Source of the DNA: Chromatiales bacterium
GTDB taxonomy: Bacteria > Pseudomonadota > Gammaproteobacteria > Thiohalomonadales > Thiohalomonadaceae
DNA: 46,772 bases
Reading direction: 5' to 3'
NCBI GenBank assembly: GCA_003251535.1
Contig: QKFD01000024.1
Location: 161,837-208,608, forward strand
The notes beneath the pieces are model-generated. The model was given only the letters and a program-made list of their open reading frames with translations. It had not been told where the DNA came from and ran no database searches. Positions 1,360-46,592 of the stretch are shown piece after piece. A program made the position numbers and the translations under genes. Positions within the stretch are counted from its first letter, which is position 1; the number at the start of each line of letters is the position of its first letter.

Positions 1360-1456
1360 GCAGGAGGCGGGGCGTCAAAAGGTGGGGGGGCTGGGAAGAG
1401 TCATATTAGTAAAGTAGGATATTCTCACCTCTCCCCCCAGCCGACCGAGGTACACG

Positions 1457-1564
1457 ATGCTGACGTTCGACGCCCTGACCATCGGTGGTATCGCCGTCGC
1501 GATACTGTTTGCCATTGTGATGCTGGCCACCTGCCTCACCAAAGGGTGTAGTCGAACCCGCTAA
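1457..1564 (+). CDS. Small single-span membrane protein (35 aa)
   Basis: A short ORF begins with ATG preceded by CGAGG at a seven-base spacing. It encodes a 35-aa peptide with one hydrophobic helix (about residues 8-27) and a short basic tail containing two cysteines (TCLTKGCSRTR). It lies alone between two minus-strand genes, and a strong hairpin follows about 20 bases after the stop. Small membrane peptides of this form exist widely, but I recognise no family. The ribosome binding site, membrane helix, basic tail and downstream hairpin together make it more than a chance ORF. Confidence 0.5.
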   Translation: MLTFDALTIGGIAVAILFAIVMLATCLTKGCSRTR

Positions 1565-1584
1565 CGCCCGTCATCCTCTCTGCG

Positions 1585-1617
1585 GGTAGGGCCTAGGGAG
1601 ACCCCCTAAGCCCTACC
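1585..1617. terminator. Hairpin between convergent genes
   Basis: A 14-base stem (GGTAGGGCCTAGGG pairing with CCCTAAGCCCTACC, one mismatch) closes a short loop. It sits after the small membrane ORF and before the end of the MlaC-like gene on the opposite strand. No U-tract is present on either strand, so it may work as a bidirectional or Rho-assisted terminator. Confidence 0.5.
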
Positions 1618-1654
1618 TACCCCCCCCTCGGGATCGCTTAAATGAGGGGGTAGC

Positions 1655-2821: not shown

Positions 2822-2903
2822 TGTCGCTCCTGAGGCAAATGAAGGCGGCGCAAGCATACCACAGGCCCTTGGCCGACACGGGCCAGGGGGCGATACTGCC
2901 CCG

Positions 2904-3593
2904 ATGCCCCCTTCTCCACCCTTCCCCCCGCCACCGCCCGCCACCGAGGATGAGCTGCTCCAGCGCGCAGCCCGCCTGGCCGGCGCCACTCTGGCAGAGC
3001 TGGCGGCCCAGGCCGGCCAGCGGGTACCCCACGATTTGCGGCGCCATAAGGGGTGGGTTGGGCAGCTGCTGGAGCGGCACCTGGGGGCGAGTGCCGGATC
3101 CGCCCCAGAGCCCGACTTTCCCCAGCTCGGCATCGAGCTGAAGAGCCTACCGCTGGATCGACGCGGCCTACCCCGAGAGTCCACCTATGTCTGTGTCGTG
3201 CCGCTAGAGGGGGGCCAAACGGGGCACTGGGAGGGCTCGCTACTACAGCGCAAGCTGGCGCGGGTGCTCTGGCTACCGGTGGAGGCCGATCCTGGGTTAG
3301 TCCTGGCAGAACGCCAAGTGGGGGTGGCGCTACTCTGGTCCCCTGATGCCGCGGAGCAGGCACAGCTGCGCCGCGACTACGAGGAGCTGATGGAGCTAGT
3401 GGCCTACGGGCGGCTGGAGGAGCTGGATGCCCGCTTCGGCGAGGTATTGCAGATCCGCCCCAAGGCGGCCCACAGCAGGGTGAGGGGTAGTAGTGTTGGG
3501 CCGGACGGGGCACCACTCCAGGTCAACCCCCGCGGCTTCTACCTGCGCCCCAGCTTCACCGCCGGACTGCTCCAGCGCCACTTCCAGGGCTAG
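2904..3593 (+). CDS. mutH: DNA mismatch repair endonuclease MutH
   Basis: A 229-aa protein, the same length as E. coli MutH, with a closely matching layout. MutH nicks the unmethylated strand at hemimethylated GATC sites after activation by MutL in methyl-directed mismatch repair. The catalytic D-(X)n-E-X-K motif is visible as Asp71, Glu78 and Lys80 (PDFPQLGIELK), one residue off the E. coli positions. KGWVGQLLE, GASAGS, QIRPKAA and the final PRGFYLRPSFT are also family hallmarks. The start was chosen to match family length; the frame is open further upstream. Its presence implies Dam methylation and places the genome in or near Gammaproteobacteria. Confidence 0.96.
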   Translation: MPPSPPFPPPPPATEDELLQRAARLAGATLAELAAQAGQRVPHDLRRHKGWVGQLLERHLGASAGSAPEPDFPQLGIELKSLPLDRRGLPRESTYVCVVPLEGGQTGHWEGSLLQRKLARVLWLPVEADPGLVLAERQVGVALLWSPDAAEQAQLRRDYEELMELVAYGRLEELDARFGEVLQIRPKAAHSRVRGSSVGPDGAPLQVNPRGFYLRPSFTAGLLQRHFQG

Positions 3594-3600
3594 AGGCGCA

Positions 3601-3969
3601 TCAACCCAAACTGGAACTCTTGTAGAGCTGGTGCAGGCGGGCGTCGATGAAGCGCTCGTAGGTCTGCTTGCCATCATCGACAAAGCGCACAAAGTTGAGA
3701 CCGATCCGGTAGGCGTTCAGCTCCCCGGCGTAGATCACATGGACCACGCGCACATGCACCTCCAGCTCGACGGTGGTCTGGCTGGAGATATCGACCACGG
3801 AGAAGAAGATATCGAACTCATCCCCTTTGTCGGCGCTATATTCGGAGATGATCTGCAACCCACCCTTGGAGAGGTCATAGGTCCAGGTATAGACCATCTC
3901 CCCGCTGCTAAGGCGGATCCCAACGCGGCGGCGTTGGCGGACTCGGGGGGCGGCGCGTCTGTCGAACAT
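3601..3969 (-). CDS. PilZ domain c-di-GMP-binding protein
   Basis: A 122-aa single-domain protein. The N-terminal arginine-rich stretch (MFDRRAAPRVRQRRR) supplies the RxxxR motif, and YDLSKGGLQI about 20 residues later is the (D/N)xSxxG motif of PilZ domains, which bind cyclic di-GMP. It has no membrane segment, so it is a cytoplasmic effector. It is convergent with mutH, and no pilus or flagellar genes lie nearby, so its output is unknown. Other c-di-GMP enzymes occur in the window (17637-20447). Confidence 0.9.
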   Translation of the reverse strand: MFDRRAAPRVRQRRRVGIRLSSGEMVYTWTYDLSKGGLQIISEYSADKGDEFDIFFSVVDISSQTTVELEVHVRVVHVIYAGELNAYRIGLNFVRFVDDGKQTYERFIDARLHQLYKSSSLG

Positions 3970-4076
3970 AGGTAGAGCTCAGCGAGCCATGGCGTTACGA
4001 GCGACACCCGTCGGGTGCGCTGGAGGTGAATGGCGGGACGAGCGGGCTTTATACCACATCTTCCTGCCCCCTGCCG

Positions 4077-4754
4077 TCATCCATGCTGGCCGAGGGTGCG
4101 ATTGAGGAACTCCACCGTCACCTGCCACGCCGCCTCTGCCACCTCCGAGTTATAGCGCTCGCTGGTGGGATTCACAAAGCCATGACCCGCATCATATGCG
4201 TGGGACTCCACCTGTTGACCGGCCTCAGCCATGGCGGCGGTGAACTTGTTGCGCTTCTCGGGATAGGTGGTCTCGGCAGTGGCGTAGATCGAGAGCACCG
4301 GCCCGCGCAGGGTGGTTAACGCCTCGACATCGGTCACCATGCGACAGTAGTAGAGCACCACCGCATCCACCGCCTCCGGGTCGAGCAGTGCCGCCTGCAT
4401 CGCCTGGCGGCCACCAAACGACCAACCGAAGGTGGCGATGCGCCGCCCCGGTCGCTTCAGCTGCTCCAGGGCGGCGAGCAGCTTGGTATCGGCCTCATCC
4501 TGGTCCACGGCCCGCATCATCTCCCCCGCCTGACCGGGATAGTGGGCCCGCTCGCCGTCGTAGAGATCGATCACCAAGGCCAGATAGCCCAGCTCCGCGA
4601 AGCGATCCGCCCACTCCTTGTTGTAGTCGAGCAGGCCCCACCAGTCGTGGATCATGAGTAGCGCGTTGGGCGCCTCCTCCGCTCCGCTCTGATAGGCATC
4701 GAACTCGACTCCGTCGAGCGTCTTCAGGTTGAGCATTTGCCGTTCTGTCTGCAT
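4077..4754 (-). CDS. Dienelactone-hydrolase-family alpha/beta hydrolase, Ser nucleophile
   Basis: A 225-aa soluble alpha/beta hydrolase of the dienelactone hydrolase family. HDWWGL near residue 36 and LALVIDLYDG near residue 59 are family motifs. The nucleophile elbow reads GWSFGG (Ser112), where classical dienelactone hydrolases have Cys (GxCxGG). The catalytic His sits in DAGHGF near the C-terminus. The Ser variant suggests an esterase-like activity rather than true dienelactone cleavage, and no aromatic degradation genes are adjacent. The start is uncertain, as a second Met lies six codons downstream. Confidence 0.88.
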   Translation of the reverse strand: MQTERQMLNLKTLDGVEFDAYQSGAEEAPNALLMIHDWWGLLDYNKEWADRFAELGYLALVIDLYDGERAHYPGQAGEMMRAVDQDEADTKLLAALEQLKRPGRRIATFGWSFGGRQAMQAALLDPEAVDAVVLYYCRMVTDVEALTTLRGPVLSIYATAETTYPEKRNKFTAAMAEAGQQVESHAYDAGHGFVNPTSERYNSEVAEAAWQVTVEFLNRTLGQHG

Positions 4755-4820
4755 ACCAGTATCGCGTCGGAGGTGAAGTGAAGATTGGGTGGCGCGGCCA
4801 AGGCGCTCGGGGGCGCTATG

Positions 4821-5015
4821 CTACTCCACCGCCACTGCGGGTTGATATACCCGGCAGCCGCTGAACGGAGTGGAAAAAGCGACGGGAAACAGTGAGCTGC
4901 CCGATGGCTGGAACCTCACCTCACCGCAACCCACAGATCGCGCCCACTCCGTCAGTGAGCGGAAGGAGAGATAACAGATGATGGCGAGCAAGAAAAGCCC
5001 TAGCGGGAAAACCAT
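4821..5015 (-). CDS. Possible small membrane protein (64 aa)
   Basis: A possible ORF in the 400-base gap between two clear genes. It would encode one hydrophobic helix (FPLGLFLLAIICYLSF) followed by a soluble tail with two cysteines. No good ribosome binding site is seen at the ATG chosen, and a longer version would need a TTG start near 5099. I recognise no family, and it could be chance. Confidence 0.3.
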   Translation of the reverse strand: MVFPLGLFLLAIICYLSFRSLTEWARSVGCGEVRFQPSGSSLFPVAFSTPFSGCRVYQPAVAVE

Positions 5016-5152
5016 CCTGGTTGCCAATAGGGGAGGAGTAGGAAACACTTTTAGCAGCAGGCCGGCAGGCCACCACGCACCCTGAAGCCATCCCAACAAC
5101 CCCTGGACCGAGGCCTATCACGCCCGCCCAACTATCGAGCTGGGGTATCCCC

Positions 5153-6316
5153 ATGGCCGCGTCCATTGACCCTCCCAACTACCAGCGCTCACTCATCTCC
5201 TTGATGGCCGCCCTCGCCCAGGGGTTGGGGGTTGAGCAGATCCACTATGAGCCCCTGCCTGAGCTACCCGTGGAGCGCCTGCGCGGTCGCACGGTGGTGC
5301 TACTGGTCGTGGATGGACTCGGCTTACAGCTACTGCGCCACCTACCGGCGACCGCCCCCCTGCGCCGCCACTACACTACCCCGCTCCAGTCGGTCTTCCC
5401 CACCACCACCGCCGCCGCCATCACCACCATTGCCACCGCGGCGGCGCCGGCCCGTCATGCGGTCACCGGGTGGTTCACCTGGCTCAAGGAGCTGGGCAGT
5501 GTCGCCACCCTGCTGCCATTTCGACCGCGCCTTGGTAGCGCTGGCTATAGTGGCGTTACCCCCCAGGAGCTGGTGGGGGCCACACCGTTGACCGCCCGCA
5601 TCGCGCTGGCAAGCGCCTACTTCCAGCCCGCAGAGATCGCCCACTCGGTCTATAGCCGCTTTGTCTCCGGCCCCGCCCAGCAGTGCGGTTTCCACGGCCT
5701 CAGCGGGCTGTTTGATGGTCTCGCCGCAGCGGTGCAGGCCAACGCTGCCCCGCGCTACCTATTCGGCTACTGGTCGGAACTGGATGGCCTGGCCCACCGT
5801 TTTGGCAGTGAGAGCGCGGCGGTGCTGGAGCAGCTCTATGCCATCGACAACGCCTTTGGCCGCTTCCTGGAGACCATCGCCGGCAGCGGCGCCCTGGTGC
5901 TCCTCACCGCCGATCACGGCCTCACCGACAGCCTCCCGGAGCGGACGGTGGACTTGGCCGCCCACCCCCGTCTCGCCGCCGCCCTGACGCTCCCGCTCTG
6001 CGGCGAACCCCGGGCCGCCTTCGCCTATCTACGCCCAGCACAGCGGGCCGCCTTCATCCACTATGTCACCCAGGAGTTGGCAGAGCGGTGTGATCTCATC
6101 AGTGCGGAGCAACTGCTGGAGGAGCGTTGGTTTGGGCCCGGCCCAGAGGACCCACGCCTGACCGACCGCATCGGCGACTATCTGCTACTCCCCCGCGATG
6201 GGGTCGTATTCCGTCAACGGTTGCCGCACGAGGCGGGGTATGAGCAGAGAGGTGTCCACGGCGGTCTATCGCAGGCAGAGCGGACCGTCCCGCTGATCAT
6301 CGCGGAGTGTGGCTAA
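5153..6316 (+). CDS. Alkaline-phosphatase-superfamily phosphodiesterase/phosphatase
   Basis: A 387-aa protein of the alkaline phosphatase superfamily, type I phosphodiesterase/nucleotide pyrophosphatase branch. The first metal site is LLVVDGLG (Asp54). The nucleophile threonine lies in VFPTTTAA (about residue 84). Later metal ligands are in YWSELDGLAHRFG and LLTADHGLTD, and a last His is in RGVHGG near the end. No signal peptide is evident, so the enzyme is probably cytoplasmic, unlike many relatives. Substrate is unknown. It is divergent from the preceding gene and convergent with yecA. Confidence 0.88.
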   Translation: MAASIDPPNYQRSLISLMAALAQGLGVEQIHYEPLPELPVERLRGRTVVLLVVDGLGLQLLRHLPATAPLRRHYTTPLQSVFPTTTAAAITTIATAAAPARHAVTGWFTWLKELGSVATLLPFRPRLGSAGYSGVTPQELVGATPLTARIALASAYFQPAEIAHSVYSRFVSGPAQQCGFHGLSGLFDGLAAAVQANAAPRYLFGYWSELDGLAHRFGSESAAVLEQLYAIDNAFGRFLETIAGSGALVLLTADHGLTDSLPERTVDLAAHPRLAAALTLPLCGEPRAAFAYLRPAQRAAFIHYVTQELAERCDLISAEQLLEERWFGPGPEDPRLTDRIGDYLLLPRDGVVFRQRLPHEAGYEQRGVHGGLSQAERTVPLIIAECG

Positions 6317-9843: not shown

Positions 9844-10204
9844 GGGTGGCCTCCAAGGTCGCCTCCGTCACCGGGAGCGGCAGGGCGACGAAGCGATCGG
9901 GGAAGCGGCCGGTGAGCCGATCCAGAGCGGCTTGCTGCTCCGGCCGATAGAGCACGATAACCGCCATAGAGGGGTAGTGGTGGGCCAGCGCCAGCAGCGA
10001 CTCCAACGCCGAGGTGCGATCCCGAAACTCGATCTGGTGGTTGAACTCCGCCACCAGCACCGCCGGGGGAGAGCGCTTCAACTCACCCTGGGCCTTGCGC
10101 CCCTGGGCCACCACCGTGGGCTCAAACCCCAGGCGGCGAAAGAGGGCCGTGAAGTCGGGATAGCCCCCCAACTCGACAAACTGTAGGAGCGGTTGCGGGC
10201 TCAT
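9824..10204 (-). CDS. Degenerate response-regulator-receiver-like protein
   Basis: A 126-aa protein with an alternating strand/helix pattern like a CheY fold. The usual phospho-acceptor position is replaced: the strand reads AVLVAEFNHQ instead of ending in Asp. The sequence FRDRTSALESLLAL is distinctive, but I can attach no named family. It overlaps the upstream small membrane gene by an ATGA junction and the downstream arfB by about 20 bases, so the three form a compact operon. It is probably a non-phosphorylated receiver-like scaffold. Confidence 0.65.
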   Translation of the reverse strand: MSPQPLLQFVELGGYPDFTALFRRLGFEPTVVAQGRKAQGELKRSPPAVLVAEFNHQIEFRDRTSALESLLALAHHYPSMAVIVLYRPEQQAALDRLTGRFPDRFVALPLPVTEATLEATLADCLP

Positions 10205-10392
10205 GTGACGCTGATGACCAGCAGGATCACAAACAGGATCACCGCGCTGATCGGCACTATCACCCCCATCCAATCCCGCGGGGCACCGCGGCTACGGGCC
10301 ACAGCGGCGCGCACTCCAGGGACCCAGAGGAACATGAGCAGGAGTAGGCCAACACCCAGTAGGGCCCACTCCCAGGTCGCGGTCTGTCCCAT
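10201..10392 (-). CDS. Small two-helix membrane protein
   Basis: A 63-aa protein with two hydrophobic helices (about residues 8-24 and 42-62) joined by a basic loop (RAAVARSRGAPRDW). GAGGT upstream supports the ATG chosen. Its stop overlaps the next gene's start as ATGA, so it is translated together with the receiver-like protein. Family and function are unknown to me. The positive loop would face the cytoplasm. Confidence 0.6.
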   Translation of the reverse strand: MGQTATWEWALLGVGLLLLMFLWVPGVRAAVARSRGAPRDWMGVIVPISAVILFVILLVISVT

Positions 10393-10536
10393 GGCGCTAC
10401 CTCGACCAAGTGCGGCCAAACTGGCCGGTGACCGGGTTTGGCGGGTAAGAGAGGTGGGGCATGGCAATCTCCCAATGGCTGACAGGAGGCGATCCCGAGC
10501 GGGCGATCGCCGGTTGGCACGGCCCCCCGCAGGGGG

Positions 10537-11754
10537 CTAAAACTGATACCCCTTGGGCACCACCACCACCCCCCGCTCGGAGACGGTAAAGCGGCTGCGA
10601 TCACGCTCCAGGTCGTAACCGATCTGCTCGCCGGATGGCACCACCACATCCTTATCGATAATGCAGCGCCGCAGCCGGGCGCCATCCCCCACCCGCACCC
10701 CTTGGAACAGGATCGACTCCTCGATGAAGGTCTCATCCCCCACATGCACCTGGGGGAAGAGGATAGAGTGCTGCACGCTGCCGCCGGCGATCACCACACC
10801 ACCGGCCACACTGGCATTGATGCAGATCCCCTCGGAGCCGGAGCGGCCGGGAACGGTACGGGCAGGGGGGGTCTGGACCTGGTAGGAGCGGATGGGCCAA
10901 TCGACCTGGTAGAGATCGAGCGGCGGCACCGGCTTCAACAGGTCCATGTTGGCCTCGTAGTAGGCATCGATGGTCCCCACATCGCGCCAGTAGCGATCTG
11001 GGGTCACCCGACCGGTATCACCACCAAAGCGGTAGGCCATCACCCGCTGGCTGGTCAGCAGCCGTGGCAGGATATCCTTGCCAAAATCGTGATGGGAGTC
11101 GTTACGGCCGGCATCCTGCTCCAGGGCCGAGAGGAGCAGTTCCAGATCAAATACATAGATCCCCATGGAGACCAAGGCGGCCTCGGGGTCGCCGGGGGTG
11201 GCCGGCGGATCGGCCGGTTTCTCAATGAAACTGACGATGCGCTCCTCATGGTCCACCGCCAACACCCCAAAGGCGGTGGCCTCCATCCGCGGCACGGTCA
11301 TGCAGGCCACCGTCACCGCCGCCCCCCGCGCCTGGTGGGCCGCCAATAGGGCGGCGTAGTCCATGCGGTAGATATGGTCGGCGGAGAGCACCAGTACCTG
11401 GCTCTTACCGGAGCGCTCCAGCAGATAGCGGTTCTGATGAATGGCATCGGCGGTGCCCTCGTACCAGCGCTCGCCAGAGCGCATCTGGGGAGGCACCGGG
11501 GTGATGTACTCGCCGATCTCGGGATTGAAGATGGACCAGCCATCCCGCAGATGCTTTTGCAGTGAGTGGGACTTGTACTGGGTAAGCACCAGTACCTGGC
11601 GCAACCCGGAGTGGAGGCAGTTGGCCAGACAGAAGTCGATAATGCGGTACTTGCCGCCAAACGGCACCGCCGGTTTGGCGCGATGCTCAGTAAGGGGGTG
11701 GAGGCGCGTTCCGGTCCCGCCTGCCAGGACCACCGTAAGGGTCTTATTCACCAT
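10537..11754 (-). CDS. glgC: Glucose-1-phosphate adenylyltransferase (ADP-glucose pyrophosphorylase)
   Basis: A 405-aa enzyme that makes ADP-glucose from glucose-1-phosphate and ATP, the committed step of bacterial glycogen synthesis. The N-terminal nucleotide-binding signature (LAGGTGTRLHPLT, then RAKPAVPFGGKYRIIDF), the catalytic region SADHIYRMDY and the C-terminal left-handed beta-helix (repeats such as VHVGDETFIEESILF) are all present. AAGG precedes the ATG. Together with the phosphorylase at 12463-14985 on the same strand, it forms a glycogen storage group; glgA and glgB are not adjacent. Confidence 0.95.
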   Translation of the reverse strand: MVNKTLTVVLAGGTGTRLHPLTEHRAKPAVPFGGKYRIIDFCLANCLHSGLRQVLVLTQYKSHSLQKHLRDGWSIFNPEIGEYITPVPPQMRSGERWYEGTADAIHQNRYLLERSGKSQVLVLSADHIYRMDYAALLAAHQARGAAVTVACMTVPRMEATAFGVLAVDHEERIVSFIEKPADPPATPGDPEAALVSMGIYVFDLELLLSALEQDAGRNDSHHDFGKDILPRLLTSQRVMAYRFGGDTGRVTPDRYWRDVGTIDAYYEANMDLLKPVPPLDLYQVDWPIRSYQVQTPPARTVPGRSGSEGICINASVAGGVVIAGGSVQHSILFPQVHVGDETFIEESILFQGVRVGDGARLRRCIIDKDVVVPSGEQIGYDLERDRSRFTVSERGVVVVPKGYQF

Positions 11755-11890
11755 ACCAGCCTTGTCTCGCCCGCAGTTGGAGAGGTAGCGGGGGGCTATT
11801 TTGGGCGAGACGGAACGCTATGGGTAGGTGTTAGCACCGGTAAAATGGCCCTTTTTATCCGCCGATGGGTGGAATAGGCCCCCCACCCCC

Positions 11891-16791: not shown

Positions 16792-17634
16792 ATGGCTATC
16801 CGTTCTCTGCTCGTTTTCTTGGTATCCGCGCTCTGCTGGATATCCAACGCACAGGCATCGGATGCCTACTCCTTCGGGGTGCTCTCCCAGCGTAGTGCCG
16901 TGCTCACCGCCCAGTACTGGAATCCCATTCTGGACTATGTACAGCAGCGGAGCGGCGTCGAGTTGCGCCTGAAGGTGGCGCGCACCGCCCCGGAGTCCAA
17001 CGCCGCCACCGAGCGCGGCGAGTACGATTTCGTCTACTCCAACACCATCTTTCTCCCGGCCATGGCAGAGGCCAACTACCAGGTCATCCTGCGCCCACGG
17101 GCCGAGGCGATCGCCGGGCAGATCGTCACCCTGGCCAACTCCCCCATCCACGACCTGCATGAGCTACAGGGGCGGGAGGTGGGCTTCCCCTCCTTGGCCG
17201 CCTTTGTCGGCTATGCGGTCCCCATGGACCACCTACTGCGCGAAGAGATCCAGGTAAATCCGGTATTCGGCGGCAACCAAGAGGGGATCATGGGCCAGCT
17301 GAAGGCCGGCAAGGTGATCGCCGCCGGGGTGAACAGCCTGGTGATGCGCGACTTCGCCGCCCGCGAGCAGCTGCAATACCGGGTGTTGTGGCAGTCAGTG
17401 CCCTACAACAACCTCCCCATCTCGGCCCACCCACGGGTCCCGGCCGAGGTGGTCAACAAGGTGCGCCAGGCCATCGCCAGCATGAACGACGACCCGCAGG
17501 GGAGCGCCGTGCTGAAGACCAGCGCCGCCATCATCAAGCAGAAGCCGCCCTTTGGCTTCGATCTCGCGGATCAGAGCGACTACCAGAGTTACGTAGACTT
17601 CTACCGCCACACTCTGGTCAACGATATCCGCTAA
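16792..17634 (+). CDS. PhnD-type periplasmic binding protein coupled to a c-di-GMP enzyme
   Basis: A 280-aa exported binding protein of the PhnD (phosphate/phosphite/phosphonate) family. It has a signal peptide (about residues 1-22, ending in NAQAS), then SFGVLSQRSAVLTAQYWNPILDYVQ, YDFVYSNTIFLPA and a ligand-closing segment LQGREVGFPS. No cognate ATPase or permease is adjacent. The GGDEF-EAL gene begins two bases after the stop codon, so the likely role is ligand sensing for that membrane enzyme rather than import. A possible -10 (CATAAT near 16756) lies upstream in the 211-base gap. Confidence 0.88.
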   Translation: MAIRSLLVFLVSALCWISNAQASDAYSFGVLSQRSAVLTAQYWNPILDYVQQRSGVELRLKVARTAPESNAATERGEYDFVYSNTIFLPAMAEANYQVILRPRAEAIAGQIVTLANSPIHDLHELQGREVGFPSLAAFVGYAVPMDHLLREEIQVNPVFGGNQEGIMGQLKAGKVIAAGVNSLVMRDFAAREQLQYRVLWQSVPYNNLPISAHPRVPAEVVNKVRQAIASMNDDPQGSAVLKTSAAIIKQKPPFGFDLADQSDYQSYVDFYRHTLVNDIR

Positions 17635-17636
17635 GC

Positions 17637-20447
17637 GTGACTACCCCCGTTGCACGCCTATGGGCCCGGCTGCCCTTCACCGGCCGGCTGCTGTTCACCG
17701 CCAGCATCGCCCTCATTATCGCCGGCGGTACCATGCTCTACTCCTCGGCGCGCCGCGATGCCGAGGAGGCGCAGGCCGATCTGCGCGCCGCCCTAACCGC
17801 TGAGCTATCCACCCTGCCCGCCTCGCTGGCGGAGATTGTGGTCATTGGCGACTTCTCCACCCTGCAACAGACGTTGGAGCGCCACGTCACCCGGCAGGAG
17901 ATCGCCCACATCACCTTCCACGACATCTCCGGCACCACCATCGAATCGGCCGATCGCCAGGTGGCCCTCGCGGCACCCCAGTGGTTCGTGAGGTGGTTGG
18001 GGGTGGAGGATCGCCGCGGCACCACCGAGACCCTCATCGGCGGGCGTAGCTACGGCACCCTGGAGATCACCCTCACCGCCCGCCCGGCCATCAACCGCTC
18101 CTGGCAGCGTCTCAAGAGCCACCTCTCGATCCTGGCGCTGGCGGTCCTCCTCGACTTTCTCGGCATCTGGTTGGTACTGCGCAGCGGCTTGCGGCCGCTA
18201 CGCGCCCTGGATGCCAGCGCCCGCGCCCTGGCCCAAGGGGAGTTCACCAGCCGCATCGCCCCCCAGGGCAGCCCGGAGCTACGCCGCTCCATCACCGCCT
18301 TCAACCAGATGGCCGACGCCATCCAGCGTGCCCATGAGGTGTTGGGGCAGGAGAAGGAGAAGTGGCGGATCACCCTCAACTCCATCGGTGATGCGGTGAT
18401 CGCCACCGATGGCGTTGAGCGGATCGAGTTTATGAATCCGGAGGCGGAACGCCTGACCGGCTGGTCTGCCCAGGAGGGGATAGGGCAGCGGCTACCGGAG
18501 ATCCTGCGGCTCATCGATGAGCTGAGCGGCGCCAGCAAACCGAGTCCGGTGGAGGAGGCGATCACCAAGGGCCACGCCATCAATCTCGCCAACCACACCC
18601 TGCTGCTGGCCAAAGATGGACAGAGCCGCCCCATCGCCGATAGTGCCGCACCGATCCGACTGGCCACCGACGGCACCATCATCGGTGCCGTCATGGTCTT
18701 CCGTGACGAGACCCGCGAGCGGCGGCGACTGGAGCAGCTCCGGGCGGTGGCCGAACAGCGGCGCCTCACCGCCAGTGTCTTTGAGAATACCCATGAGGGG
18801 ATCCTCATCACCGATCCGCAGGGCAAGATCATCGAGGTCAATGCCGCCTTCAGCCGCATCACCGGCTACGACCGCGAGGAGGTGTTGGGGCGCAACCCAC
18901 GGCTGCTCAAGTCGGGCTACCACGAGCAGGAGTTCTTTAGCGCCATGTGGCAGGTGCTGACCGAACGCGGCTACTGGAGCAGCGAGATCTGGAATCGGCG
19001 CAAGGATGGCGAGGTCTACCCAGAGCTACTCACCATCTCGGCGGTGCACGATGAAAACGGCGAGGTCACCCACTATGTGGGGGTGGCCACCGATATCACC
19101 CTCATCAAACAGCACGAGCAGCAGCTGGAGCGCATCGCCCACCACGACTCGCTCACCGGGATCCCCAACCGGGTCCTGCTGGCCGATCGGATGCGCCAAT
19201 CCATCGCCCAGACCCGCCGCAGCGGCCACCTGATGGCGGTGGGCTATCTCGACCTCGACGGCTTCAAGCCGATCAACGACTCCTTTGGCCATGAGGCGGG
19301 CGATCAACTGCTCATCGAGGTGGCCGGCCGCATGGAGAGCGGTCTGCGTGACGGCGATACCGTGGCCCGGCTGGGGGGCGATGAGTTTGTCTTCCTACTC
19401 CTCGGGCTGCGCGATATCCATGAGTGCGAACAGACCGTCACCCGGCTCCTCTCGCTCATCGCCCAACCCATCGCCCTCGGCCCAGAGACGGTCACCATCT
19501 CCGCCAGTATCGGCGTCAGCATCTACCCCACTGACGACGCCGATCCCGATACCCTGCTGCGCCACGCCGACCAGGCGATGTACCTCGCCAAGCAGGCGGG
19601 CCGTAACCGCTATCACCTCTACGATCCAGAGCACGACCGACGCGCCCGCAGCCAGCGGGAGGCGCTGGAGCGGATCACCCAAGGGCTGGCGGTCGATGAG
19701 TTCGAGCTGTTCTACCAGCCCAAGGTCAACATGCGTAGCGGCGAGGTGGTGGGGGCCGAGGCGCTGATCCGCTGGCGCCACCCCGAACGCGGCCTGCTGG
19801 CGCCGGCCGACTTCCTGCCCCTGCTGGAGGGGAGCGATGAGGCGCTGGCGCTGGGCGAGTGGGTGCTGGCAACCGCGCTCTACCAGGTGGCCACCTGGCA
19901 CCGCCAGGGGCTCAACCTCGGGATCAGCGTCAACATCGCCGCCCAACATATCCAACAGCAGACCTTCGCCACACGGCTCCAGGAGCTACTGGCGCAATAC
20001 CCCGATCTACCGCGGGGCAGCGTCCAGCTGGAGGTGTTGGAGACCGCCGCCCTGGAGGATATCGGGCGGGTCTCCCGCATCATCGATGCCTGCCGCCAAC
20101 TGGGCGTCGGGTTTGCCCTGGACGACTTCGGCACCGGCTACTCCTCCCTCACCTATCTCAAACGACTGCCAGCCGAGGCGCTCAAGATCGACCAATCCTT
20201 CGTCCGCGACATGCTCAAGGACCCGGAGGATCTCGCCATCGTCGAGGGGGTGGTCGCCCTGGCCAACGCCTTCGGTCGCTCTGTGATTGCCGAGGGGGTA
20301 GAGTCCCTGGAGCACTGCCTGCGGCTCATGCAGCTGGGTTGCGACATCGCCCAGGGGTATGGCATTGCCCGCCCCATGCCAGCGGCCCAGATCCCGCAGT
20401 GGGTCGCCGCCTGGCGGCCCGATCCGCGCTGGCAGCAGGAGGCTTAA
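17637..20447 (+). CDS. Membrane PAS-PAS-GGDEF-EAL c-di-GMP turnover protein
   Basis: A 936-aa inner-membrane protein. One helix (about residues 15-35) leads to a periplasmic domain of about 125 residues, a second helix (163-183), a HAMP linker, two PAS domains (about 243-490), then GGDEF and EAL domains. The GGDEF site is intact and has an inhibitory RxxD site five residues before it (RDGD). The EAL site is intact (EALIRW, DDFGTGYSS, KIDQSF, AEGVES). The protein can therefore potentially make and degrade c-di-GMP. I start at GTG because it is two bases after the preceding stop; the open frame extends upstream only as out-of-frame overlap with the binding-protein gene. The periplasmic domain is the obvious docking site for the PhnD-like protein encoded before it. 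Confidence 0.93.
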   Translation: MTTPVARLWARLPFTGRLLFTASIALIIAGGTMLYSSARRDAEEAQADLRAALTAELSTLPASLAEIVVIGDFSTLQQTLERHVTRQEIAHITFHDISGTTIESADRQVALAAPQWFVRWLGVEDRRGTTETLIGGRSYGTLEITLTARPAINRSWQRLKSHLSILALAVLLDFLGIWLVLRSGLRPLRALDASARALAQGEFTSRIAPQGSPELRRSITAFNQMADAIQRAHEVLGQEKEKWRITLNSIGDAVIATDGVERIEFMNPEAERLTGWSAQEGIGQRLPEILRLIDELSGASKPSPVEEAITKGHAINLANHTLLLAKDGQSRPIADSAAPIRLATDGTIIGAVMVFRDETRERRRLEQLRAVAEQRRLTASVFENTHEGILITDPQGKIIEVNAAFSRITGYDREEVLGRNPRLLKSGYHEQEFFSAMWQVLTERGYWSSEIWNRRKDGEVYPELLTISAVHDENGEVTHYVGVATDITLIKQHEQQLERIAHHDSLTGIPNRVLLADRMRQSIAQTRRSGHLMAVGYLDLDGFKPINDSFGHEAGDQLLIEVAGRMESGLRDGDTVARLGGDEFVFLLLGLRDIHECEQTVTRLLSLIAQPIALGPETVTISASIGVSIYPTDDADPDTLLRHADQAMYLAKQAGRNRYHLYDPEHDRRARSQREALERITQGLAVDEFELFYQPKVNMRSGEVVGAEALIRWRHPERGLLAPADFLPLLEGSDEALALGEWVLATALYQVATWHRQGLNLGISVNIAAQHIQQQTFATRLQELLAQYPDLPRGSVQLEVLETAALEDIGRVSRIIDACRQLGVGFALDDFGTGYSSLTYLKRLPAEALKIDQSFVRDMLKDPEDLAIVEGVVALANAFGRSVIAEGVESLEHCLRLMQLGCDIAQGYGIARPMPAAQIPQWVAAWRPDPRWQQEA

Positions 20448-35832: not shown

Positions 35833-36303
35833 TCACCGCCAGCTGAAGATGCGGTGCCAGGCCCGTTGCAACCAATACTGCTGCGGTGCCTCCGCGGGCT
35901 TTGACTGCTCTCCCTTGTAGTAGGAGACATAGTGCCGATCATCATTTTTGATGTGGTTGGTGAGCCAGATTTGCAGGTCGGAGATTAGGCGCCTGGTGAT
36001 CTGCTCTCCCGCGGCATGGCGTTCGGCGTAACGGTTGATATGGGTGATGAAGGCCTCATGCACCTTCTTGTGGCCCTCTGACAGTGGGTATCCAACCCGC
36101 GCCATCAACGCCTCCTCGAAGGCAAAGTGGGTGACGGTGTAGTCCACCAGTCCATGTAATACCCGCGCCACACCCTGCTCATCCTGCTCCTTGTGGGCCC
36201 CTTGTAGTTCATTGATGTAGGCCACTAGACGCTTGTGCTGCTCGTCAATCGCATCGATACCGATGGATAGGGAATCGTCCCAGGACCAGTATTCCACGGC
36301 CAT
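35833..36303 (-). CDS. Bacteriohemerythrin at the end of the vnf cluster
   Basis: A 156-aa single-domain hemerythrin, an oxygen-binding di-iron protein. All seven expected ligands are visible: His23, His59, Glu63, His78, His82, His117 and Asp122, at spacings typical of bacteriohemerythrins. It is the last gene in the same direction as the vanadium nitrogenase cluster, 29 bases after the Nif11 gene. In other bacteria such proteins bind or deliver O2; here an oxygen-scavenging role that protects nitrogenase is plausible but inferred from position. Confidence 0.92.
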   Translation of the reverse strand: MAVEYWSWDDSLSIGIDAIDEQHKRLVAYINELQGAHKEQDEQGVARVLHGLVDYTVTHFAFEEALMARVGYPLSEGHKKVHEAFITHINRYAERHAAGEQITRRLISDLQIWLTNHIKNDDRHYVSYYKGEQSKPAEAPQQYWLQRAWHRIFSWR

Positions 36304-36332: not shown

Positions 36333-36527
36333 TTACAACGGGGTAATGCCGTACTCCTGATATATCAACGCCTGCGCCTGCTTGAACTCCTGCTCGGTGA
36401 AGCAGTAGCCGTGCTGTTCAAGGAGCTGCCATCCGGCCTCCTCGCTCGCGCAGTCATTCACTGTACGACGAAATGGCTCGTCGCTGCGCATCCGTTCGAT
36501 ATAGGCACGTGCAGACTCTACCGACAT
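36333..36527 (-). CDS. Nif11-family small protein
   Basis: A 64-aa protein. The pattern MSVESARAYIERMRSDEPF, then a helix and GYCFTEQEFKQA, matches the Nif11 domain, first seen in nitrogen-fixation clusters and also used as a leader of some ribosomal peptides. There is no double-glycine cleavage site or core peptide, and no peptide-modifying enzyme gene nearby. It is therefore a nitrogen-fixation type Nif11 of unknown function. It lies between the transporter permease and the hemerythrin, on the same strand. Confidence 0.85.
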   Translation of the reverse strand: MSVESARAYIERMRSDEPFRRTVNDCASEEAGWQLLEQHGYCFTEQEFKQAQALIYQEYGITPL

Positions 36528-36538
36528 AACATTCTCCT

Positions 36539-37372
36539 TCAGTGACGAATGCCACCCAATAGGGCAGCGCGGATGCGGGCACCGACGATATTGATCAGAC
36601 TCACCAGCGCCAACAGAACCAGGATCAAGGCCAACGCCTCGCGGTACTCAAACTGATCGAGCGCCACCACAATCTCCTGACCGATGCCGCCGGCACCGAC
36701 CATGCCCAGCGTGGTGGCGGCCCGCACGTTGTGCTCCCAGCGGTAGAGCGTCACATCCACCAGCCGCGGCATGATCTGGGGCCAGACGCTGAACCGCAGC
36801 ACCCCCAACTCGCTGATCCCGTGGCTGCGCAGGGCGTTGCCGGGGGCCGGATCCATGTGCTCTAAGATCTCGGCGTAGAACTTGCCCAACATCCCACTGG
36901 AGTGGAAGGCGAGGGCAAAGATCCCCGGTAGCGGCCCAAAGCCCACCGCTGCCACAAACAGCACGCCCCACAGTAGCCCCGGGATCGAGCGCAACGTGTT
37001 GAGCAGTAACAGCACCGGCCCCCGCAACCCAGCGGGGGCGACCCCACGGGCCGCCAGCGCCCCCAACGGCAGGGCGACGAGCGCCCCCATGACCGTGCCC
37101 ACCACACTCATCGCCAAGGTATCGAGCAGTGGCTTGCCCCAGGTGTGCCAACGGCTGAAATCCGGTGGCAGGGCATCCCCCAACAGGATGGCGATGGTAG
37201 GCAGGGCGTCCCGGTAGCGCTGCGGATCGAGGGCATCGGCATAGAGGAAGGCGGTCAAGATGACCACCGTCGCCAAGGCGACGGTGGTCCCGCGGCGCCG
37301 ATCCCGGCGCCGCCCCTCCAGCAGGATGGCCTCGACTTGGCTCGCCTCAGCACCCGCTGTCAGCTCGCTCAT
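36539..37372 (-). CDS. PhnE-type ABC permease, probable vanadate importer subunit
   Basis: A 277-aa inner-membrane permease of the phosphonate (PhnE) family with about six helices. The binding-protein-dependent permease loop (EILEHMDPAPGNALRSHGISELG) is in the second half. The start overlaps the stop of the binding-protein gene (ATGA), so they are co-translated. With the PhnC- and PhnD-like genes it makes a complete importer with one permease type, presumably a homodimer. Its location in the vnf cluster suggests the cargo is vanadate, an oxyanion similar to phosphate. This is inference, because no direct specificity signature is known to me. Confidence 0.88.
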   Translation of the reverse strand: MSELTAGAEASQVEAILLEGRRRDRRRGTTVALATVVILTAFLYADALDPQRYRDALPTIAILLGDALPPDFSRWHTWGKPLLDTLAMSVVGTVMGALVALPLGALAARGVAPAGLRGPVLLLLNTLRSIPGLLWGVLFVAAVGFGPLPGIFALAFHSSGMLGKFYAEILEHMDPAPGNALRSHGISELGVLRFSVWPQIMPRLVDVTLYRWEHNVRAATTLGMVGAGGIGQEIVVALDQFEYREALALILVLLALVSLINIVGARIRAALLGGIRH

Positions 37373-38250
37373 TTCAAGAGATCCTGCGACTCGGGGTGGG
37401 CCGCGGCAATGGCCTTAATCCAGTTGCGCACCCGATCAACATCAGAGTCAACACAGGGGATGAAGGCCTCGGCCCGAAACACGGATAGGGCAGCCGGGTC
37501 ATCCACCTCGATAAACGCCTTGCGGATCTCCTCCTTGAAGTCGGGATCCAGCCCCTGGCCGAAGGTCCACATGTACTCTGGAATGGCGGGCGATTCTGCC
37601 AGCACGCGCACGCTTTTGGGATCGAGCTTGCCCTCTTTGAGCAGCCGCTTGAAGATGGGCATGGAGAGTCCGCCGGCCCCCAGCTTGTGGTTGGCAACCG
37701 CAAAGGCGACCCGATCGTGCGCCCCTAGCACCCGCAGGGTGTAGTCACGCTCGGAGACCAGACCGGCATCCACCAGCATGTAGCGCGGGACCCAAGTGCC
37801 TGAAGTAGAGGCCGGATCGCCAAACCCGATCTCCTGCCCCTTGAGATCCGCCAACCCCTGGGCCGGGCTATCCGCCGGCACGATAATCACCGCCTGAAAG
37901 GTGGGGCCCACCCGCTCATGGGAGGGGCGCGCAAACGGCTCCATGGCGGCATATTTGCTTTGCAAGATGTAAGCGACGGGACCGAGATAGGCGATGTGCA
38001 AGCGGCCAAAACGCAAGGCGGCGCTGGTGGCGGCGTAGTTGCTCCCCACCACCAGCTCCACGGGAATGCCCAGGCGCTTCTCCAGATAGGCGCGCAAGGG
38101 CTCATTGAGACGCAGCACCGTAGTCGCCGACTCACCGGGCAGCAGCCCAATCAGCAACTTCTCTGGGCGATCAGCCGCCTGGGCAGGGACCACGACGAGG
38201 GTAAAACAGAGGGCGATAAGGGCGACAAAACGGGTGAACAGGATGCGCAT
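37369..38250 (-). CDS. PhnD-type periplasmic binding protein, probable vanadate-binding
   Basis: A 293-aa exported binding protein. The signal peptide spans about residues 1-25 (ends VPAQAAD). The family regions LLIGLLPGES, YLGPVAY and GFGDPASTSGTWVP (the oxyanion-binding Ser/Thr loop of PhnD/PtxB proteins) are clear. AGGAGGAG lies close before the ATG. A sigma-54 type promoter sits directly upstream (38305-38320), so this gene starts its own transcript even though it is also downstream of vnfK. It differs strongly from the PhnD-like protein at 16792-17634. Vanadate or another vanadium species is the likely ligand because of this regulation and position. Confidence 0.9.
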   Translation of the reverse strand: MRILFTRFVALIALCFTLVVVPAQAADRPEKLLIGLLPGESATTVLRLNEPLRAYLEKRLGIPVELVVGSNYAATSAALRFGRLHIAYLGPVAYILQSKYAAMEPFARPSHERVGPTFQAVIIVPADSPAQGLADLKGQEIGFGDPASTSGTWVPRYMLVDAGLVSERDYTLRVLGAHDRVAFAVANHKLGAGGLSMPIFKRLLKEGKLDPKSVRVLAESPAIPEYMWTFGQGLDPDFKEEIRKAFIEVDDPAALSVFRAEAFIPCVDSDVDRVRNWIKAIAAAHPESQDLLK

Positions 38251-38304
38251 GGTTCTCCTCCTGAAGGTATGAACGAAAGCGACAACACGCCGCCCCACAC
38301 CCAT

Positions 38305-38320
38305 CGCAATTCCTTTGCCA
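38305..38320 (-). promoter_or_regulatory. Sigma-54 promoter of the phnD-like gene
   Basis: The minus strand reads TGGCAAAGGAATTGCG, giving exact GG-N10-GC spacing for the -24 and -12 elements (GG at 38319-38318, GC at 38307-38306). The expected start of transcription is about 38294, leaving a leader of some 44 bases before the ATG. It lies in the 213-base gap between the ATPase and binding-protein genes. I found no clear activator site upstream of it. Confidence 0.72.
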
Positions 38321-38463
38321 ACCGCGACTCGATGCGTTAGCTATTTGAAATCCAGTCCGTTATTTAGCCCCCATCGCCCTCCGTCCCCCTCCGGCCGGCG
38401 CCCCGCCGCACCTGCACGTAAGGCCGGCAGCGGCGGGTGAACATTTATGCACCTACACGCCAC

Positions 38464-39195
38464 TCACTGCGCGGCGAGCGGAAAGACGCGCCGCTGCGCC
38501 TGCGCATCGAACGCCTGGGCTGGACCATCGAAGGCGATGCGGCCATCCACCAGACCGATCACCTTGTCGGCCAGTGCCAGCGCGGTATCGATCTGATGCA
38601 TCACCAGCACCACCGTCATGCCGCTGTGCGCCACCTGCTCCCGTAGCAGTGCGGCGAGCTGCTGCACCAACACCGGATCCACCGAGGCGAACGGTTCATC
38701 GCCCAAGAGCAGTCGCGGCCGGCGCACCAGCGCCCGGGCAACGCCTACCCGCTGGCGCTCCCCCCCGGAGAGGTGATCGGCCCGCGCAGTGGCGCGATGG
38801 AGCAGCCCCACCGCCCCCAACGCCGCAGCGGCCTGCCGCCGCATCGCCACGGGCCACGGCAACGGGGAGAGTGGGTGGCGTCGATCGGCCAACCCCAATA
38901 GCACGTTATCGATGGCCGGCAGACGATCGATCAGGGCGTGCTCCTGAAACACCGTGGCGGTACAACGACGGTAGGCGCGTAACGCCGAGGCCCCCTCCAC
39001 CGCCCCCTGCCCCGCCACCAGCAGGCGCCCAGCGGCAGGCCGAATCAGGCCGTTGAGGACCCCGACCAAGGTGCTCTTGCCCACCCCTGAACGGCCCACG
39101 ACCGCGGTAATGGCGCCGGCCGGGATCTCCGCGCTCACGCCCCGCAGCACCTCGCGCTCACCGCGCCGCACCGAGACCGCCTCTAGCGCGATCAT
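38464..39195 (-). CDS. PhnC-type ABC ATPase, probable vanadate importer subunit
   Basis: A 243-aa ATP-binding subunit. Walker A is GRSGVGKST, the Q-loop follows TVFQEHALI, the signature is LSGGERQRV, Walker B is LLLGDEPFASVDP, and the switch His is in VMHQIDTAL. It resembles the phosphonate-type PhnC branch. The start overlaps the stop of the 69-aa gene (ATGA), so it belongs to the vnfK-downstream transcript. The binding-protein gene begins 213 bases later behind its own promoter. Confidence 0.9.
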   Translation of the reverse strand: MIALEAVSVRRGEREVLRGVSAEIPAGAITAVVGRSGVGKSTLVGVLNGLIRPAAGRLLVAGQGAVEGASALRAYRRCTATVFQEHALIDRLPAIDNVLLGLADRRHPLSPLPWPVAMRRQAAAALGAVGLLHRATARADHLSGGERQRVGVARALVRRPRLLLGDEPFASVDPVLVQQLAALLREQVAHSGMTVVLVMHQIDTALALADKVIGLVDGRIAFDGPAQAFDAQAQRRVFPLAAQ

Positions 39196-39401
39196 GAGAG
39201 CGGGCGGGAGAGGTGCGCCCGCTCCCGTTCATAGGTACGAAACGCCGTTACCAACCGGTCGAGCACCTGGGCGGCGGCATCAAACATGGCCCGCAGCAAC
39301 GGCTCCTCCGCCTGCGTGGCATCCTCTCGCAGGCGCCCGGCGGTACCCTCCAGCTGATACGCCACGTGGCGCACCTGCTGTAGTGGATCACTCTGTGGCA
39401 T
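39192..39401 (-). CDS. Small vnf-linked protein of unknown function (69 aa)
   Basis: A 69-aa, probably all-helical protein rich in Ala, Arg and Glu, with heptad-like spacing in the second half (LLRAMFDAAAQVLDRLVTAF). I do not recognise a family. AGGGGG precedes the ATG. It lies 11 bases after the VnfX-type gene, and its stop overlaps the start of the ABC ATPase gene. This tight coupling says it is translated with the transporter or cofactor genes. It could be an accessory factor for either. Confidence 0.7.
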   Translation of the reverse strand: MPQSDPLQQVRHVAYQLEGTAGRLREDATQAEEPLLRAMFDAAAQVLDRLVTAFRTYERERAHLSRPLS

Positions 39402-39412
39402 CGCTCGCCCCC

Positions 39413-39955
39413 TTAGGCCACTGCCGCGTCGTCGTCGTCATCGTCCGCCTCACTCGTCCGCTGTAGTGGCGTACGACGTACAGTGGCACTGGCCTCAGTG
39501 GCCGGCGTATGGCCCAGGGCGCGCCGCATCCACAGCGGCGGGTTGCCCGCCATCATGCGCTGGAGATAGACGATCACCTCATCGATCTCCCGGTCACGCT
39601 CCAACTTCACCGGAAAGACCCCGGCATCCCGCAACTTCACGGCGGCGAGATCACTCAACCCCTTGGTGAAGATCACCTTGCAGTCGGCCACCGCCTCCAC
39701 CCGCGGGGTGATGCGATCGCCACCATTACCGCTCCCCTCCACCTCATCCATCCAACAACCGCCACCATTCTTGGCGCGTCCACGCCCCTCGCCACCGCCA
39801 CCACCACCGCCGGAGAAACGGGCCACATCAATAAACTCGGCACCATCGATGGTGACGTCATAGAGGACGATCTGCTTCGCTAAGGCGAAGGCACAATCGA
39901 CGTGGGTGAGGCTCTTGGTGGTCATGGCGACCTTCAGGTGACCAACTTGGGACAT
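39413..39955 (-). CDS. vnfX: NifX/VnfX-type cofactor-binding protein
   Basis: A 180-aa protein of the NifX/NafY/NifY family, which hold nitrogenase cofactor precursors such as NifB-co or FeV-co. LKVAMTTKSLTHVD opens the domain, and NPPLWMRRAL, close to the NPPPWL motif of the VnfY-type protein at 44725-45417, follows it. The usual His in the HFG-like loop is Ala here (CAFALAK). There is a glycine-rich insert near residues 49-70 and an acidic tail with a run of six Asp. AAGGAG precedes the start. In Azotobacter the gene downstream of vnfK is called vnfY, so the symbol is a matter of judgement; I use vnfX for the shorter NifX-like protein. Confidence 0.82.
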   Translation of the reverse strand: MSQVGHLKVAMTTKSLTHVDCAFALAKQIVLYDVTIDGAEFIDVARFSGGGGGGGEGRGRAKNGGGCWMDEVEGSGNGGDRITPRVEAVADCKVIFTKGLSDLAAVKLRDAGVFPVKLERDREIDEVIVYLQRMMAGNPPLWMRRALGHTPATEASATVRRTPLQRTSEADDDDDDAAVA

Positions 39956-39994: not shown

Positions 39995-40885
39995 TCAGGT
40001 CATGGGTAGACCGACCACCATCACCTCGCGGCCGAAGCGGTGGCGGAAACGGGAAGGTAGTTCAGTGCCGTAAGGGTCACGGACACGCCAACGGGACAAC
40101 TCCGCGCTGGCCAGCCAGCCGGCTTGCAGCGCCTCCACCGGCACGATGTGCAGGCCGTCTTGGAGTGAAACAAAAAAGTCGATGGGGTAGCGCAGCGGAT
40201 CGGCGTAAGGGGGGGAGATCTCGAAGCGGTAACCCCCATCGACAACCGCAAAACGGGGATTGTCACAGTCGAGCCGAAAGTGGCGATTGAAATAGCCCGG
40301 CGACCGGAACTGGTAGAGGATCCGATCCTCATCGGCAAACTTGCGGATCTCAGCGACGATATCGACAAAGTACTGCCACAGCAGCCGCTCTACATAGGCC
40401 TCGGCGTAGGGCTGGCGGGGCGCATCCAGATAGGTATAAACAAACGACTCCAGCAGCCCCAACCCCACGGGGGTGATGTTGAGTGACAAGGCACAGCGCT
40501 CAAAGGTACAGGCACAACGCACCAGACCCTCTTCCAGTTCGCAGTACCCATCGCGGTGGCTGGTGGCGATACGAAAGATGCGCAGGATACGGTAGACCTC
40601 TGCCACCAACTTCTCCGTCACCGAACGCCGCGGTAGCGCCAGGTAGCGCTGCCATGAGCCCACCCCCTCCATCAATGCAGGGTCTTGGCCCACGAGGCTC
40701 GACTCCAACAAGAGCGCCGCCACGTGCACCCCCAATGTCCCGTGCGGGGCCATGGAGGGCGGATCGTCACAGAAGGTCAACCGCTTGCGCTTGGTGTAAA
40801 GCTCGATCTGCCGATACTCCGGCAGGGACCAACGGTGGCCAAAAGAGCGACGACTATCCTGGAGCAGATCGGCTAACGGTTGCAT
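39995..40885 (-). CDS. Uncharacterised vnf-linked protein with a Cys cluster (296 aa)
   Basis: A 296-aa soluble protein encoded between vnfK and the vnfX-type gene on the same strand. I recognise no family. A distinctive cysteine group occurs near residues 115-131 (C-x8-C-x-C-x4-C, in GYCELEEGLVRCACTFERC), which could bind an iron-sulfur cluster or another metal. Further on, a mixed region holds DEDRILYQFRSPGYFNRHF and YADPLRYPIDFF. A longer in-frame start lies 21 codons upstream, but MQPLADLL is the more protein-like start. Its position directly behind vnfDGK suggests a role in V-nitrogenase maturation or in vanadium handling. Confidence 0.8.
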   Translation of the reverse strand: MQPLADLLQDSRRSFGHRWSLPEYRQIELYTKRKRLTFCDDPPSMAPHGTLGVHVAALLLESSLVGQDPALMEGVGSWQRYLALPRRSVTEKLVAEVYRILRIFRIATSHRDGYCELEEGLVRCACTFERCALSLNITPVGLGLLESFVYTYLDAPRQPYAEAYVERLLWQYFVDIVAEIRKFADEDRILYQFRSPGYFNRHFRLDCDNPRFAVVDGGYRFEISPPYADPLRYPIDFFVSLQDGLHIVPVEALQAGWLASAELSRWRVRDPYGTELPSRFRHRFGREVMVVGLPMT

Positions 40886-40960: not shown

Positions 40961-44585
<3,625 letters not shown>

Positions 44586-45644: not shown

Positions 45645-46575
<931 letters not shown>

Positions 46576-46576
46576 T

Positions 46577-46592
46577 TACAAGGAGCGTGCCA
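46577..46592 (-). promoter_or_regulatory. Sigma-54 promoter of vnfH
   Basis: The minus strand reads TGGCACGCTCCTTGTA. It matches the -24 consensus exactly and the -12 with one change (GT instead of GC, spacing of ten correct). The expected start is near 46567, about 40 bases before the vnfH ATG. Confidence 0.75.

Follow-up and report, generated by a model that had tools for sequence, protein, structure and literature searches.

A vnf-linked PhnC/D/E-type transporter in a Chromatiales bacterium is a probable VodABC-type vanadate importer and shares a pocket signature with VnfZ

A 46,772-nucleotide stretch of a Chromatiales bacterium genome (assembly GCA_003251535.1, contig QKFD01000024.1, positions 161,837 to 208,608; hereafter the window) carries three genes for an ATP-binding cassette (ABC) transporter of the PhnC/PhnD/PhnE type within a cluster of vnf genes for vanadium nitrogenase (V-nitrogenase). 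The three genes very probably encode a high-affinity vanadate importer orthologous to VodCAB of Azotobacter vinelandii, a reading that rests on gene order, protein families, phylogeny and pocket residues, and from which we infer vanadate as the cargo. The transporter is a further example of VodABC, whose discovery is already in print. Since vodABC of A. vinelandii has already been given its name and a predicted role in vanadate transport (PMC9542535), the idea of vanadate uptake put forward in the initial annotation of this DNA is not new.

On the minus strand, the genes run in the order vnfD, vnfG, vnfK, orf296, a vnfX-like gene, a 69-amino-acid open reading frame (ORF), a vodC-like ATPase gene, a vodA-like binding-protein gene, a vodB-like permease gene and a Nif11 gene (Table 1). 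The vnf context is real because the VnfD, VnfG and VnfK proteins all exceed their curated NCBIfam cut-offs. The initial annotation had described a full PhnC/D/E-type importer within the vnf run whose ATPase gene is coupled by overlap to vnf-linked genes. Coordinates, family scores and vnf neighbours agree with the former, and the ATPase gene indeed shares four bases with the 69-amino-acid ORF after vnfX. The binding-protein gene overlaps the permease gene by the same length. The 69-amino-acid ORF has phmmer matches at the equivalent position in loci L029, L056 and L074, and L015 and L074 are examples of loci in which a Nif11 gene likewise follows vodB.

The binding protein has a signal-peptide-like N-terminus. 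At E ≤ 0.001 it matches a single Pfam family, PF12974, and it passes the broad subfamily model TIGR01098 (235.4 bits, cut-off 112.05). However, it remains under the PhnD equivalog cut-off (178.8 versus 261.1 bits), and the ATPase likewise remains under that of PhnC (TIGR02315, 192.4 versus 266.1 bits). A PhnC/PhnD/PhnE-type trio with a periplasmic binding protein is the composition expected of VodABC. The nearest solved structures to the binding protein are PtxB proteins (5o2j, E = 1.1e-57). No match to the carbon-phosphorus (C-P) lyase protein PhnI was found in the whole genome (the E. coli control was recovered and the assembly is 95.6% complete), and this result, together with the sub-cut-off PhnD score, speaks against the PhnCDE transporter of C-P lyase as an identity. 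One PtxD query likewise gave no genome match at E ≤ 1e-20. The earlier remark that phosphonate-degradation and phosphite-oxidation genes are missing nearby extends to the whole genome for PhnI and for PtxD at that threshold.

In a tree of 49 proteins (paired support values are given), VodA proteins form a clade with VnfZ (95/99), a proposed vanadium sensor, which passages of PMC9542535 describe as a VodA paralog that has no signal peptide and interacts with VnfA3 and VnfA1. The VnfZ (100/99) and PtxB (96/93) groups are also recovered. The window protein and A. vinelandii VodA, which are 71% identical, fall together in a 13-row clade (98/95, with a long-branch warning) that lies inside the VodA plus VnfZ clade and apart from PtxB and PhnD. 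Within it, the window VodA pairs with that of L074 (100/100). A monophyletic VodA group without VnfZ was considered but is not demonstrated, as L056 falls outside and the grouping appears in 14% of bootstrap trees.

Pocket residues separate these proteins from PtxB. In Ps_PtxB, the ligand contacts given in the passages of PMC5700983 are an STS-H set (S124, T125, S126 and H155), Y49, Y94 and a capping Y203 with its partner D16. The STS, the His and two Tyr residues (Y72 and Y226 in the window protein) are common to PtxB and unchanged in all 33 VodA and 8 VnfZ rows of the alignment. In contrast, where PtxB has D16, Y94, S127-H128-L129, Q202 and P204, the window VodA has G39, F118, G151-T152-W153, E225 and M227. 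The changes to F118, G151, W153 and E225 are present in every VodA and VnfZ row. Gly replaces D16 in 32 of 33 VodA and 8 of 8 VnfZ rows, and Met replaces P204 in 30 of 33 and 8 of 8, respectively. Position 152 is Thr in 33 of 33 VodA rows and Ser or Thr in VnfZ. None of these changes occurs in the five PtxB rows. The same split holds in rows fetched later, comprising six VodA (L114-L117, L120, L121), three VnfZ (L124, L125, L127) and six PtxB-type proteins (L126, L129-L133).

The changed residues may favour vanadate, in that without the Asp that latches the capping Tyr, and with the adjacent changes, there may be room for a fourth oxygen. Presumably, VodA would bind vanadate (HVO4 2-/H2VO4 -) between its lobes in the periplasm via the STS loop, His178, Tyr72 and the capping Tyr226. 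It would then dock on VodB, ATP would be hydrolysed by VodC, and the vanadate entering the cell would be available for FeV-cofactor assembly. The window genome holds both VodA and VnfZ types, and we consider the chances about even that the periplasmic importer component and the cytoplasmic sensor are one fold in which a shared set of residues (G39, F118, G151, W153, E225 and mostly M227) converts a phosphite-type into a vanadate pocket. We make no claim that this signature is absent from the literature.

To place the window among other vnf loci, the window VnfD was used as the query of a scan that yielded 78 loci (the best 80 of 89 stretches were kept). Each locus spans up to 10 kb on each side where the contig permits, a few loci share one genome, and gene presence was scored by bit-score limits picked from the survey table. 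A VodA-type gene is present in 32 of the 58 loci from Pseudomonadota, with VodB in 34 and VodC in 31; a survey of PhnCDE-like genes beside vnfDGK had been proposed in the initial annotation. VodA-type genes are found in none of the 20 loci of other phyla (9 labelled Cyanobacteriota, 7 Bacillota, 2 Methanobacteriota, 1 Acidobacteriota and 1 Myxococcota). Among these, L057, labelled Cyanobacteriota, is a 4.5-kb contig of a metagenome-assembled genome with a proteobacterium-like VnfD. PtxB-type proteins scoring at least 60 bits are found in none of the 78 loci. Genome-wide searches located VodA in 6 of 10 genomes whose vnfD locus had none, in five cases on the vnfD contig at a distance of 11-14 kb and in one case on another contig. 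Gene order varies in L083, where vodB is placed between vodC and vodA and the vodC-vodA gap is 2075 bp.

The association was also examined in wider sets of genomes and plasmids. Among 369 genomes of the class, the window genome has a match to the VodA query at E ≤ 1e-60, as do two others, with 39-40% identity, and vnfG is present in the window genome alone. In the overlapping set of 398 genomes of the phylum, such matches occur in the window genome and five others (39-47% identity), and vnfG in the window genome and G541. A search of 16 genomes from the same genus as L034 gave one VodA-type match, in the genome of L034 itself, and one PtxB-type match of 42%. Of 72,556 plasmids, 38 records match at E ≤ 1e-60, and one of them exceeds 60% identity. 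This is a VnfZ-type gene of Azotobacter chroococcum located beside iron-chelate ABC genes, and one other plasmid match that was inspected lies in an operon with a phosphonate dehydrogenase and a LysR regulator. The pocket residues of all eight distant relatives from genomes that have no VodA-type gene mark them as PtxB-type, and seven of these eight genes have a PtxD-like ORF within the fetched stretch. The lone exception is L097, whose genome also has no PtxD match. The initial annotation had noted that occurrence of the importer mainly beside phn genes in relatives would count against vanadate. Instead, VodA-type genes are found in vnf loci and the distant relatives are PtxB-type.

The evidence described above also bears on other identities for the transporter. 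That a phosphite or phosphonate importer resides in the vnf cluster by chance is very unlikely. This would be in keeping with the NCBIfam and Pfam assignments, which are to a phosphate/phosphite/phosphonate family, and with PtxB as the nearest solved structure with its oxyanion contacts kept. However, the PhnD equivalog score is below cut-off, the residues around the phosphite site are changed in all 33 VodA rows, neither PhnI nor PtxD has a match in the genome, and the vnf linkage recurs across many families. We also view as improbable an importer for another oxyanion (molybdate, tungstate or phosphate) that is used under nitrogen fixation. Related folds do bind several oxyanions, with arsenite-linked AioX/ArrX-type proteins among the weaker matches of the binding protein in the Protein Data Bank (PDB), and there is a weak match to the selenate-type model TIGR04553 (128.7 bits, cut-off 250). 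Nevertheless, VodA follows V-nitrogenase loci and not nitrogen fixation at large, with no VodA-type match in the other 368 of the 369 genomes of the class, and a vnf-cluster relative from Rhodopseudomonas palustris bound vanadate (PMC3223731).

The operon could also be dead or a relic, given that the neighbouring vnfH begins in a different frame (46429-46570, minus strand) from its remainder (ORF 45645-46511), near the contig end. This frame change is either genuine or a product of misassembly. The assembly is a draft of 130 contigs, with the window forming the end of C85, and VodA, VodB, VodC, VnfD, VnfG and VnfK are all intact with conserved pocket residues. A relic is thus extremely unlikely. 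Vanadium as the cargo, which was also the choice of the initial annotation, is supported by the vnf linkage, the clade with VodA, the pocket block, the missing PhnI and PtxD matches and the published orthologs.

Several observations weigh against a vanadate importer orthologous to VodCAB. Long outgroup branches were flagged by the tree tool, and the pocket roles are carried over from PtxB by alignment. The residue block also has lapses. One of the 33 VodA rows, as well as L120 and L121, has Thr at position 39, and the VnfZ proteins L125 and L127 carry Ala at position 152 and either Leu or Val at 227. L127, which is the plasmid-borne paralog of A. chroococcum, has also lost the first Ser of the STS. 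The genome-wide VodA search covered 10 of the 26 proteobacterial loci without VodA. Two of these 10 genomes gave a VnfZ-type match alone and two gave no VodA match at E ≤ 1e-60. G541 has vnfG and no VodA match. Finally, orthology of the window VodA to RPA1385, the R. palustris protein mentioned above, is deduced from L034 and not from the sequence of RPA1385 itself, and the promoter proposed for vodA is weak, as described below. VodA as a strict companion of V-nitrogenase was rejected, as several vnf genomes have no VodA match.

The initial annotation assigned the binding protein its own sigma-54 promoter, a claim that fares poorly. The GG-N10-GC site before vodA agrees with 9 of 12 consensus positions, which is equalled in 13% of 2000 first-order Markov sequences, and sigma-54-like sites with at most two mismatches number 23 in the window versus 24.1 expected. 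The only two window sites with a single mismatch precede vnfD and vnfH. Among 32 other loci, a good site (11/12) located 64-69 bp from vodA, as in the window, is found in L074 and L029 only, and these are the only two besides the window in which 143-234 bp separate vodC from vodA. Because this gap is at most 86 bp or an overlap in 28 of the 32 loci measured, a separate vodA promoter is at most a trait of few lineages. VnfA-like half-sites number 38 in the window versus 26.1 expected, a count reached by 4 of 100 shuffles, and are mostly located away from vnf promoters. The vodCAB genes are likely expressed together with the vnf genes, as they lie downstream of vnfDGK-orf296-vnfX in the same orientation and behind the sigma-54-like site at vnfD.

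The A. vinelandii genes (Avin_02550/02540/02560) have the order vnfDGK-orf-vnfX-vodC-vodA-vodB-nif11 (L015), like that of the window. The differences are the additional 69-amino-acid ORF before the window vodC and the vodC-vodA gap, which is 213 bp in the window, with the weak sigma-54-like site inside, versus 16 bp in A. vinelandii. The same genes follow vnfDGK in both Azotobacter species, where vanadate uptake has been suggested (passages of PMC4465626). RPA1385 is likewise a vnf-cluster PhnD-type binding protein, annotated as phosphonate-type (COG3221), which bound vanadate with high affinity in a thermal-shift screen (PMC3223731). In L034, whose genome is labelled R. palustris, the corresponding protein is 71% identical to the window VodA in the alignment and has the same pocket block (row L118), although the transporter genes there run opposite to vnfDGK.

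VupABC of Anabaena variabilis, which transports vanadate with a Km of about 3 nM, shares the presumed cargo and the vnf linkage. Passages of PMC4284476 place its genes closest to those for tungstate transport and state that A. vinelandii and R. palustris lack 'similar genes'. Unlike this tungstate/TupA-related system, the window binding protein belongs to PF12974, a comparison made by Pfam family and not directly with VupA. By this account, VupABC and VodABC are of independent origin. Rhodoferax antarcticus is described in a passage of PMC5374385 as having no vanadium transporter, and a term search of the main text of a review (PMC13102585) found no mention of vup, vod or RPA1385. The PtxABC phosphite importer belongs to the nearest family with structures, but Ptx operons carry ptxD, for which the window genome has no match with the one query used.

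The VnfZ-type paralog of the window genome (C66:26135-26914) is 62% identical to VodA. Like A. vinelandii VnfZ (Avin_47110), it has the same pocket block and no signal peptide, and it probably reads intracellular vanadium through this pocket, as judged from its sequence. Unlike A. vinelandii VnfZ, it has no adjoining vnfA3-like gene and is instead divergent from genes for a TonB receptor and a Peripla_BP_2 protein. None of the eight VnfZ-type proteins, including this paralog, has a hydrophobic N-terminus. Ahead of the conserved core, the highest hydropathy over 12 residues is -0.32 to 1.72 in these eight versus 1.97 to 3.24 in VodA rows, with L086 (1.72) nearest to the VodA range. A. vinelandii has the same signal-less type at a second site (L125). 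A GAF/sigma-54 activator gene follows the VnfZ-type gene in L074, and a TonB receptor gene is beside it in L022. In L025 and L026, the VnfZ-type gene follows vodB inside the transporter operon, an arrangement that ties the importer to the signal-less paralog. L060 (Parasulfuritortus cantonensis) has nif11 directly after vnfX with no vodCAB between, and its genome gave a VnfZ-type match alone. The transporter has apparently been lost there and the sensor kept.

Table 1. Features of the vnf-vod region, in window coordinates
Feature	Position	Strand	Evidence or remark
vnfD	42747-44174	-	NCBIfam TIGR01860 985.7 bits, cut-off 823.1
vnfG	42394-42747	-	TIGR02930 166.3 bits, cut-off 141.7
vnfK	40961-42397	-	TIGR02932 887.1 bits, cut-off 873.95
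orf296	39995-40885	-	between vnfK and vnfX; no Pfam match
vnfX-like gene	39413-39955	-	NifX family, PF02579
69-aa ORF	39192-39401	-	no Pfam or NCBIfam match
vodC-like ATPase, 243 aa	38464-39195	-	PF00005 E = 2.9e-28; PhnC-related
vodA-like periplasmic binding protein, 293 aa	37369-38250	-	Pfam Phosphonate-bd PF12974 E = 1.6e-62
vodB-like permease, 277 aa, PhnE family	36539-37372	-	NCBIfam PhnE TIGR01097 264.5 bits, cut-off 216.7
Nif11-domain protein, 64 aa, directly behind vodB	36333-36527	-	domain match
Weak sigma-54-like site before vodA	38305-38320	-	GG-N10-GC, not significant alone
Sigma-54-like site before vnfD	44255-44270	-	1 mismatch
VnfA-like half-sites before vnfD	44359-44402		near-match scan
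Sigma-54-like site before vnfH	46577-46592		1 mismatch

Other genes in and around these loci were also recorded. Of the proteobacterial vnfD loci, 48 of 58 have a match to orf296, which lies between vnfK and vnfX, as against 0 of 20 others, and the gene is probably specific to V-nitrogenase. Nif11-like ORFs are present in 35 of the 58, behind vodB or near vnfH. A hemerythrin-like gene (35833-36303, minus strand, PF01814) adjoins the window cluster, and weak-to-moderate hemerythrin matches are near vnf in L018 and L083 too. The window contains a second PhnD-family binding protein gene at 16792-17634 (plus strand, PF12974 E = 9.8e-43), which overlaps the start of a plus-strand ORF (17388-20447) with LapD/MoxY_N, HAMP, PAS, GGDEF and EAL domains. 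From its domains, this pair is perhaps an oxyanion sensor coupled to c-di-GMP. Elsewhere in the genome, L111 (G000:C66:48001-68000) has genes for an SBP_bac_6 protein, a CobW/HypB-type GTPase, an ABC ATPase and an unassigned 397-amino-acid protein in a row (1123-5703), with a GAF/sigma-54 activator further along (10088-11779). This run resembles the VnfA1-dependent Avin_02430-02390 operon of A. vinelandii, as described in passages of PMC9542535.

V-nitrogenase needs a supply of vanadium, and genome annotation labels these genes as phosphonate transporters. A residue signature that parts vanadate-type from phosphite-type proteins would offer a means to correct such annotations, and it gives a small set of positions at which residues could be exchanged experimentally. 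The same residue block connects the importer with VnfZ, the proposed vanadium sensor in the cytoplasm. If the shared residues do convert the pocket, vanadate importers and vanadium sensors would be recognisable, and swappable with PtxB, from sequence alone.

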